Below, one piece after another: positions 38,941 to 54,875 of a DNA stretch of 64,000 nt. The notes beneath the pieces were generated by a model, which saw only the letters and a program-made list of their open reading frames with translations, was not told where the DNA came from and did not search any database. Source of the stretch: Rhodoligotrophos defluvii (lineage in GTDB: Bacteria > Pseudomonadota > Alphaproteobacteria > Rhizobiales > Im1); contig NZ_SZZM01000001.1 in NCBI RefSeq assembly GCF_005281615.1, forward strand, positions 716,496 to 780,495, read 5' to 3'. The position numbers were made by a program, and so were the translations under genes. Every line of letters begins with the position of its first letter. Positions within the stretch are counted from its first letter, which is position 1.

Positions 38941-39132
38941 ATGGCGATTGAGGACGAAGAGGTCAGGCGCAAGTCAGCCGAGATTCGCATCGGCGATGCC
39001 CTTGACGCGCTTTCGGTCGAGGATCTCACGGCGCGAATCACCATCCTCGAGACCGAGATTTCGCGCATTAGGAACGAGCTCCGGGCCCGGCAGGGCACGC
39101 GCGCAGCCGCCGAGCAACTTTTCCGAAAATAG
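38941..39132 (+). CDS. DUF1192 small coiled-coil protein
   Basis: 63 residues. The central SVEDLTARITILETEISRIRNEL is the DUF1192 signature, a short helical heptad protein seen across Rhizobiales. AAAGGAG lies six to seven bases upstream of the ATG. Function unknown. It precedes the small RNA and RcdA region. Confidence 0.85.
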   Translation: MAIEDEEVRRKSAEIRIGDALDALSVEDLTARITILETEISRIRNELRARQGTRAAAEQLFRK

Positions 39133-39241
39133 TTGCATTTTTGCTCACCCGGGCAATAGACGCGTTTTGTCAATCAGTTATCCCTCCGCACAATGGCGCG
39201 GGAACTCGCTCGGAAAAACGTTTTCACTTTTTTGAACGTCG

Positions 39242-39257
39242 TTAACCATTGAGTAAC
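39242..39257 (+). promoter_or_regulatory. CtrA-like binding site before the small RNA
   Basis: TTAA-CCATTGA-GTAAC, one mismatch from TTAA-N7-TTAAC, and containing the full TTAACCAT half-site. It lies about 50 bases before the proposed RNA start. A second GGTTAACG occurs at 39274-39281. Confidence 0.5.
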
Positions 39258-39290
39258 GAGTCCTGGTGTATTTTGGTTAACGTAATCCAG

Positions 39291-39380
39291 TGACCTGGAT
39301 TTGAGTGGCTCCTGTCCACTCTGTTTGACGCCTCCCTGTTAGACCTTGGAGCCGCCGCTTGCGCGCGGCTCCATTTTTTG
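39291..39380 (+). ncRNA. Candidate trans-acting small RNA, MmgR/suhB (alpha-r8) like
   Basis: The intergenic space before rcdA has a compact RNA-like layout of about 85-90 bases. A first hairpin GAGTGG-CTCCTGT-CCACTC (39303-39321) exposes CTCCT in its loop; an unpaired part TTTGACGCCTCCCTGTTAG follows with a second anti-Shine-Dalgarno motif CCTCCC; a strong terminator ends it at 39348-39379 with TTTTTT. A CtrA-like box and a TAATCC -10-like hexamer (39283-39288) precede it. The order of parts resembles the alphaproteobacterial MmgR family (Rfam suhB), which binds Hfq and controls storage-granule genes in Sinorhizobium. The likeness is from memory, not a search. Confidence 0.6.
39348..39380 (+). 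terminator. Rho-independent terminator of the candidate small RNA
   Basis: Stem GGAGCCGC / GCGGCTCC with an inner CGC/GCG pairing, followed by six T residues (39374-39379). One of the two clearest terminators in the window. Confidence 0.85.
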
Positions 39381-39620
39381 TGCATAAAGGGTCCCTGGTC
39401 CGTCCTGGGCTGTCGACACAGCTTTGGCGCGGGCCGAGAATATTTCGGGGCGTCATACTTCCGCCAAAGCGATGTCCAACGAGCAAATTGCTTGCGGGCG
39501 CTTGAGCGCGAGTGGAATGCCGGCCCGGCTATTTGTGGTTAAGATTGCATAACGCCTTGAATGGCACGGCCAATGCAAGGCGAACACTCGGGGCGGCTGA
39601 GTCAGTTCAACAGGATGGTA

Positions 39621-40148
39621 ATGAGATCGGTAGCGGCTGAAAGCGCAACAAGCGGCACTATGATCGATTTTGGCAGTCGTTTCGCGACCTCGGCTCTGTT
39701 CACGCAGATTTTCGCGGAGGGGATGAGCCTGGTCGAGGAGGCAGCCGATTATCTGGACGGCGAGGGTCGCGCTGCGCTGCGTGATCTCGATCGGGGCGCA
39801 TCGCTCACCTATGCAAGCGAGAGCATGAGGCTTACCACCCGGCTGATGCAGCTGGCGTCCTGGCTGCTGCTCCAGCGCGCCGTCAAGGAGGGCGAGCTCA
39901 CCCAGGAAGACGCGCGCCGCGAAAAACAACGCATCAATCTCAAGGATATCGGTTCGACCACCGACGAGGAATGCCTCGCCGCGCTGCCCGCCGGCCTGCA
40001 GAGCCTGATCCAGCGGAGCCTGCATCTCCACCGGCGCGTGCTCAAGCTCGATCGTATGATCTATGATCGCCGGACGCAGCCGAGGCCGCAGGCGAGCCCG
40101 GTCTACGAGCAGATGATGATGCTGCAGCGCGCCTTCGCCGGGAAGTAA
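39621..40148 (+). CDS. RcdA/DUF1465 family protein (regulator of CtrA degradation)
   Basis: RcdA in Caulobacter acts as an adaptor in ClpXP-dependent breakdown of CtrA. The recognisable core is FGSRFATSALFTQIFAEGMSLVEEAADYLDGEGR and SESMRLTTRLMQLASWLLLQRAV, the DUF1465 helical bundle. An acidic-basic C-terminal part follows (LHLHRRVLKLDRMIYDRR). The start is uncertain: ATGs at 39561, 39615, 39621 and 39660 are in frame; 39621 has AGG six bases upstream. It stands downstream of the small RNA and a CtrA-like box. Confidence 0.85.
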   Translation: MRSVAAESATSGTMIDFGSRFATSALFTQIFAEGMSLVEEAADYLDGEGRAALRDLDRGASLTYASESMRLTTRLMQLASWLLLQRAVKEGELTQEDARREKQRINLKDIGSTTDEECLAALPAGLQSLIQRSLHLHRRVLKLDRMIYDRRTQPRPQASPVYEQMMMLQRAFAGK

Positions 40149-54628: not shown

Positions 54629-54631
54629 TAC

Positions 54632-54787
54632 GGGCTGCCCGGCGCGTCAGGAGATCAAAGTTCCCAGGGGCCTATAAACGATCTCAACGGGAGCTGTCCC
54701 TGATTGAGGCCGTGGCCTCTTTCACATGGCGCCCACCTACGCTAGTAGGGACCCGGGATCGTATCCTCCAACGGCCAGGGCGGCTCG
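54632..54787 (+). ncRNA. ssrS: 6S RNA
   Basis: 6S RNA sequesters the housekeeping RNA polymerase by mimicking an open promoter. Three things agree. First, the position between zapA and the 5-FTHF cyclo-ligase gene is the classic one. Second, the ends pair: GGGCTGCCC (54632-54640) with GGGCGGCTC (54778-54786), nine consecutive pairs including two G-U. Third, inside lie a hairpin CTCAA...TTGAG enclosing GGGA/TCCC (about 54683-54708), and a small CCTAC-GCTA-GTAGG hairpin on the 3' side of the central bubble (54735-54748), as in other 6S RNAs. Length about 156 is usual. Ends are estimates. Confidence 0.8.
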
Positions 54788-54875
54788 GCAATTCCCGCAG
54801 GTAGCGGCCATTCTGGCATGGCCGCGCATGCAAAACGTCCCGGGCGCCGCGTGCTCGGCCCGCAAAGACCGTGTG

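Follow-up and report, generated by a model that had tools for sequence, protein, structure and literature searches.

A BjrC1505-family anti-Shine-Dalgarno small RNA beside rcdA in Rhodoligotrophos defluvii, preceded by a conserved CtrA-like promoter box

A small RNA with two exposed anti-Shine-Dalgarno (anti-SD) motifs lies upstream of rcdA in the window, the whole 64,000-nucleotide stretch of Rhodoligotrophos defluvii DNA analysed here, and belongs to the already catalogued family BjrC1505. Its place in the family, its hairpins and terminator, its linkage to rcdA and the conserved TTAA-N7-TTAA box at -35 were all observed, and we regard it as probable that the element, about 95 nt long (about 39284-39378), is a trans-acting anti-SD sRNA under CtrA control; that this CtrA circuit is functional is something that we infer. 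A first-pass annotation had proposed a small RNA with these motifs beside rcdA. Every element that it named was found, and both the fold and the family match are beyond chance; the RNA had been spotted correctly but misassigned to MmgR. Coordinates are collected in Table 1.

Table 1. Elements of the sRNA locus and its neighbours, in window coordinates.
Feature	Position	Strand	Basis or remark
DUF1192 small protein	38941..39132	+	Upstream neighbour
CtrA-like box TTAA-N7-GTAA	39242..39256	+	One mismatch to TTAA-N7-TTAA; about -35 position; same placement in pattern loci and class-wide relatives
-10-like TATTTT (putative)	39269..39274	+	By position relative to the box in related promoters
Start site (putative)	near 39281-39284	+	By position
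sRNA, BjrC1505 family (RF02356)	39284..39378	+	86.7 bits; fold z -5.8; R1 model match
Stem-loop 1, AATCCAG / CTGGATT	39284..39301	+	Predicted fold; compensatory change
Stem-loop 2, CUCCU exposed (first anti-SD motif)	39303..39321	+	Sequence and predicted fold; loop motif lost in most distant relatives
Weak stem-loop 3, CCUCCC (39331-39336) exposed (second anti-SD motif)	39323..39344	+	Predicted fold; most widely kept element
Intrinsic terminator, GC-rich stem (about 39348-39372) and six Ts (39374-39379)	39348..39379	+	Sequence, predicted fold, compensatory stem changes
rcdA (DUF1465)	39561..40148	+	PF07323, E 5.1e-56; conserved downstream neighbour; true start codon may be later

The family reportedly takes its name from Bradyrhizobium, and Madhugiri et al. 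2012 is said to be its founding paper. A search of the whole window against Rfam at the gathering thresholds (cmscan) returned two matches, BjrC1505 and 6S RNA. The match to BjrC1505 (RF02356) scored 86.7 bits (cut-off 50; E 5.4e-15) and covered model positions 1-140 of 140 at 39228-39378, with the same hairpins, loops and terminator. This model takes in the CtrA-like box and some sequence before it, so that its 5' third is probably promoter; roughly the first 48 model positions fall on the box and the -10 region and would not be part of the RNA. The window promoter differs from RF02356 generally in an extra TTAACG (39277-39282) just before the putative start; relatives of the window and a small number of further loci share it (it was seen in L003, L005, L017 and L097), whereas most relatives lack it. 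A second model, R1, was made from 71 sequences of the RNA only, without promoter, and matched 39275-39378 at 90.1 bits, the window's own copy (L002) being part of the model.

The RNA was predicted to fold at -42.4 kcal/mol (z -5.8), and none of 200 shuffles was equally stable. As the first-pass annotation had claimed, GAGTGGCTCCTGTCCACTC at 39303-39321 forms a hairpin that by inspection carries CTCCT within its loop, and a strong terminator with six Ts closes the RNA. CCTCCC had been described as unpaired; it is indeed exposed, but in the predicted fold it is the loop of a weak third hairpin and not plain single strand. Compensatory changes are seen in the terminator stem in the RNAalifold consensus alignment; in alignment A1 the letters set by the 27-letter search pattern are invariant by construction. 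Stem-loop 1 was absent from the RNAalifold consensus of the related loci, and in a shuffle test by stem length it could not be told from chance, so that its one source of support is the pair count. In that count, which omitted 8 of 121 loci lacking the TCC/GGA frame, the pair beside TCC/GGA shows a compensatory change from GC to AT and is paired in 97% of loci, as against 79% (maximum 86%) with partners shuffled, and a second pair is paired in 60%, as against 45% (maximum 57%).

The frame downstream of the RNA encodes a DUF1465 protein, which we take to be RcdA; RcdA helps to destroy CtrA. It is named as a contributor to CtrA destruction in the excerpted text of PMC8959179. Further genes nearby in the window encode TrcR, a quinone-oxidoreductase-like protein and ribosomal protein L31. 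A 27-letter core pattern matched at least 120 genome contigs which, with four family genomes, gave at least 124 loci, the window's own included (the pattern loci); the organisms in their titles include Bradyrhizobium, Rhodopseudomonas, Afipia, Tardiphaga, Roseibium, Stappia, Chelatococcus, Bosea, Microvirga and Phreatobacter. Of the matches listed, 114 had 600 nt or more of downstream sequence, and in 111 of these 114 the RNA is followed by rcdA on its own strand: 106 by an automatic rule and five from a tblastn table, the open frame at these five having overrun that rule. The exceptions were L035, which is inverted, L088, and L110, with none nearby. In L035 (a Bradyrhizobium MAG, about 1545-1700) the RNA and box are inverted relative to DUF1192 and rcdA while still lying between both, which is either a real inversion or a misassembly. 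The converse was examined at 30 rcdA loci of the class with flanks of at most 1.5 kb: six had an upstream R1 match, one more (L177) had a suhB-type RNA, and L161 had a fragment cut off at the edge. The link from the RNA to rcdA is thus strong and the converse weaker, rcdA often occurring without the RNA. At L177, from another alphaproteobacterium, rcdA follows the suhB-type RNA (245-318) at a distance of about 1.2 kb and on the same strand, an arrangement that hints at a common descent of suhB and BjrC1505.

RF02356 matches were found in 30 of 289 genomes of the class at E<=1e-3, of which 14 were above the cut-off; one weak match is a tRNA (L153). R1 matched 96 of 385 genomes, with a score of at least 35 bits in 34. 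Among 200 genomes sampled from the phylum, R1 matches at E<=1e-3 were present in 24 of 26 'same order' genomes besides the own genome (20 at 35 bits or more), and also in eight from other classes, where no score exceeded 30 bits. Because these eight genomes outside the class also match weakly, reliance was placed on matches of at least 35 bits; the weak ones are mixed and not safe. Class-wide, CCTCCCTG is kept in 29 of the 34 matches at this level and the CTCCT[GA] motif in 7 of 34. Of the two loop motifs on whose conservation in related genomes the first-pass annotation had staked its reading, CCUCCCUG (29 of 34) therefore held up and CTCCT[GA] largely did not. By this distribution the second motif, CCUCCC, would be an ancient seed, and the first, CUCCU, appears to be mainly a feature of this order. 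Three genomes (G213, G381 and G004) have two or more R1 matches each, some a few hundred bases apart (G381:C6:79514-79812; G213:C10:29-327), which suggests tandem copies.

The TTAA-N7-GTAAC box pointed out in the first-pass annotation recurs at a fixed place before the RNA, in the pattern loci and class-wide. Among the pattern loci listed with full upstream sequence, TT[AT]A-N7-[TG]TAA was present in 112 of 119, compared with 1.65 expected by resampling, and the TTAA-ending form sits 55-67 nt ahead of the GTGG core. Since the pattern loci are related, the independent test was the class-wide one, made with the model that lacks the promoter. Here TTAA-N7-TTAA with at most one mismatch was sought in a 78-nt upstream window in 72 of the 96 R1 genomes (73 rows, G270 appearing twice), second copies in a genome being dropped. 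The 24 genomes left out include G073, whose locus L160 combines a perfect box with an rcdA that lies 187 nt downstream. The box was found at 50 of 73 R1 matches and in 13 of 434 control windows taken from those loci; the figures were 31 of 34 and 5 of 200 for matches of at least 35 bits, and 19 of 39 and 8 of 234 for those below. Where rcdA was not seen in the fetched stretch the box was still enriched (24 of 43, compared with 6 of 256 control windows), so that its association is with the RNA and not with rcdA.

When spacers of 3 to 12 were tried on the 34 windows of matches of at least 35 bits, N7 gave 31, N6 17, and N3 and N10 10 each; among the pattern loci listed, at one mismatch, N7 gave 119 of 119, N6 68, N10 62 and N9 54. 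The distance from the start of the box to that of the best TATAAT-like hexamer was taken in 111 related promoters; it is 26 nt in 54 of them and 23 nt in 22, so that 76 of 111 have one of these two distances, which places the box at -35. The derived consensus, GTTAACCnTTTGTTAAC, has the same form as the CtrA motif TTAA-N7-TTAAC obtained by ChIP-seq (PMC7200025, excerpt), and most CtrA-activated Caulobacter promoters are described as having one site at -35 (PMC11264516, excerpt). The own genome encodes CtrA, which scores 423 bits against NF045991 (cut-off 350), and also GcrA. The proposal of a CtrA link, made from one window, thus appears to gain comparative support well beyond it, as a predicted binding site. 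A GANTC (CcrM) site, GAGTC at 39258-39262, is not conserved among the pattern loci listed, with GANTC in 32 of 119 upstream stretches and 44.6 expected.

The proposal that the RNA is a member or relative of MmgR/alpha-r8 was checked by the covariance search with RF00519 (suhB/MmgR) that the first-pass annotation had suggested. At a loose threshold on 301 bases, RF00519 aligned to 39307-39386 with 23.1 bits and E 0.009, under its cut-off of 41 and far under the BjrC1505 score, and membership was rejected. The own genome has one separate suhB/MmgR copy (L001, G000:C6:39940-40016) at 66.4 bits, and the suhB RNA is shorter. That the element is itself an MmgR/suhB RNA is accordingly highly improbable, in spite of the CCUCCCU, ACUU and terminator module that the two have in common; 'relative' is a fair description because this 3' module is common to both. 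The tight linkage to rcdA (111 of 114 pattern loci among the matches listed) might instead be taken to mean that the element is a cis-acting leader or attenuator of that gene. This reading is very unlikely, as the strong terminator ends the RNA about 180 nt before the rcdA frame, the RNA is inverted relative to rcdA in L035, and L110 has no rcdA nearby. Moreover, 43 of the 73 class-wide R1 matches are without rcdA in the fetched stretch, yet have the box above controls; in G060, rcdA lies just beyond the stretch.

A further reading accepts the RNA as a housekeeping or stress anti-SD sRNA but denies it any connection with CtrA, the box serving another regulator or being a by-product of an AT-rich promoter. 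CtrA binding at the box is a prediction, the box is perfect in only 11 of the 34 matches of at least 35 bits, with one mismatch in the window's own, and first-order resampling of the same AT-rich upstream windows yields a box with one mismatch in 14%. The related SorY and SorX are also described as responding to oxidative stress through RpoH-type sigma factors (PMC5036791, excerpt). However, the spacing is specific to N7 and the place is fixed across very unlike relatives, and the motif equals published CtrA motifs, so that we consider this reading unlikely and prefer CtrA control of a BjrC1505 sRNA.

Several known systems resemble the window RNA in part. SorX (RF02784) and SorY (RF02651) of Rhodobacter align through a ACCUCCCUGUUGGAC module, but with scores far below their cut-offs (18.6 bits against 46.6 and 21.1 bits against 111, at the loose threshold on 301 bases), and stress sigma factor control is reported for both; the suhB, SorY and SorX alignments all cover the part of the window RNA from CCUCCC to the terminator. 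SorY is reported to act on takP mRNA and to limit malate import (PMC5036791 and PMC6238624, excerpts). The alpha-r14 NfeR1/cuckoo RNAs also display several anti-SD motifs in loops: according to the excerpted PMC10746234 they have three hairpins, each exposing CCUCCUCCC, and the anti-SD loops of NfeR1 silence target mRNAs, ntrBC being named. CCUCCUCCC is absent from 39228-39378, as is UCCGCCGCAUCU, the conserved loop of EcpR1 (PMC4414408, excerpt). EcpR1 and GspR of Sinorhizobium and CcnA of Caulobacter are, like the RNA proposed here, sRNAs linked to the cell cycle, and CcnA has a predicted CtrA site (PMC8959179, excerpt); CcnA and GspR were likened to the window RNA by description only. GspR was also considered as a positional homologue, SMc03845 being suspected to be rcdA, and was dropped because PMC9561847, the paper found under that gene name, concerns a thioredoxin-fold protein.

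In the mechanism that we propose, phosphorylated CtrA would bind the box at -35 and control transcription, most likely by activating production of the 95-nt RNA late in the cycle, the -35 placement of the box being the reason to favour activation. Probably assisted by Hfq, the RNA would use its CCUCCC loop, joined in this bacterial order by the CUCCU loop, to pair with the purine-rich ribosome-binding sites of several mRNAs, and translation of these would be lowered. Lying beside rcdA, whose product helps to destroy CtrA, the RNA would extend the CtrA circuit by a post-transcriptional arm. A broader proposal, quite possible and held here only tentatively, is that this is an ancestral sRNA of the alphaproteobacterial CtrA regulon, in which CtrA directly drives an anti-SD RNA, often beside its own proteolysis-adaptor gene, as the translational arm of the cell-cycle switch, and that BjrC1505, suhB/MmgR, SorX and SorY form one superfamily built on a CCUCCCUGUU-ACUU-terminator module, some branches having switched their promoter from CtrA to stress sigma factors.

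In order to look for targets, pairing was computed with the 5' regions of ctrA and gcrA in four genomes and was at background in 15 of 16 tests; the exception was the pairing of the second motif with the own genome's gcrA (-21.1, past the 5% mark of -20.2), a result not seen with gcrA of its three relatives. SD-plus-ATG patterns complementary to both loops were also searched in the four genomes, and among the matches listed the frames recognised were transporters and enzymes, with no cell-cycle gene. The first pattern had 47 sites in the own genome, of which 40 were listed; 38 loci were read, giving 25 distinct frames of at least 100 aa. Five of these 25 resembled transporter binding proteins by eye, compared with 1 of 11 control SD frames (from 30 of 57 sites), which is not an enrichment of transporters. 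A few orthologue pairs have the site in common (for example L280/L257, 96% identical). Transport and metabolic mRNAs would be the likelier kind of target, by analogy with SorY, SorX, AbcR and NfeR1.

The family is already known, while its links to CtrA and rcdA are apparently unreported: no report of either link for BjrC1505-type sRNAs was found in the literature searched, in which one paper named BjrC1505, as a list entry, and which lacked the family's founding paper, where more may be said. Should the box prove functional, CtrA would have as a direct output an sRNA that is widely conserved in Hyphomicrobiales and beyond, and a route from cell-cycle state to translation would become testable in easily handled bacteria. 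A scattered set of anti-SD sRNAs would then also gain a name and a promoter.

Two observations stand apart from the locus. The 6S RNA of the window (RF00013) lies at 54629-54790 on the + strand and scores 70.6 bits. A sibling group of loci (L218 2577-2666, L220 2556-2642, L240 2530-2623, L241 2501-2592 and L248 2509-2590) has a hairpin like ACGTCTCCCAGACGT followed by GAAGCCTCCCTGTT, and thus two anti-SD loops; no Rfam family scores above its cut-off there, the nearest being SorX for L241 (39.5 of 46.6 bits) and suhB for L240 (30.9 of 41 bits).
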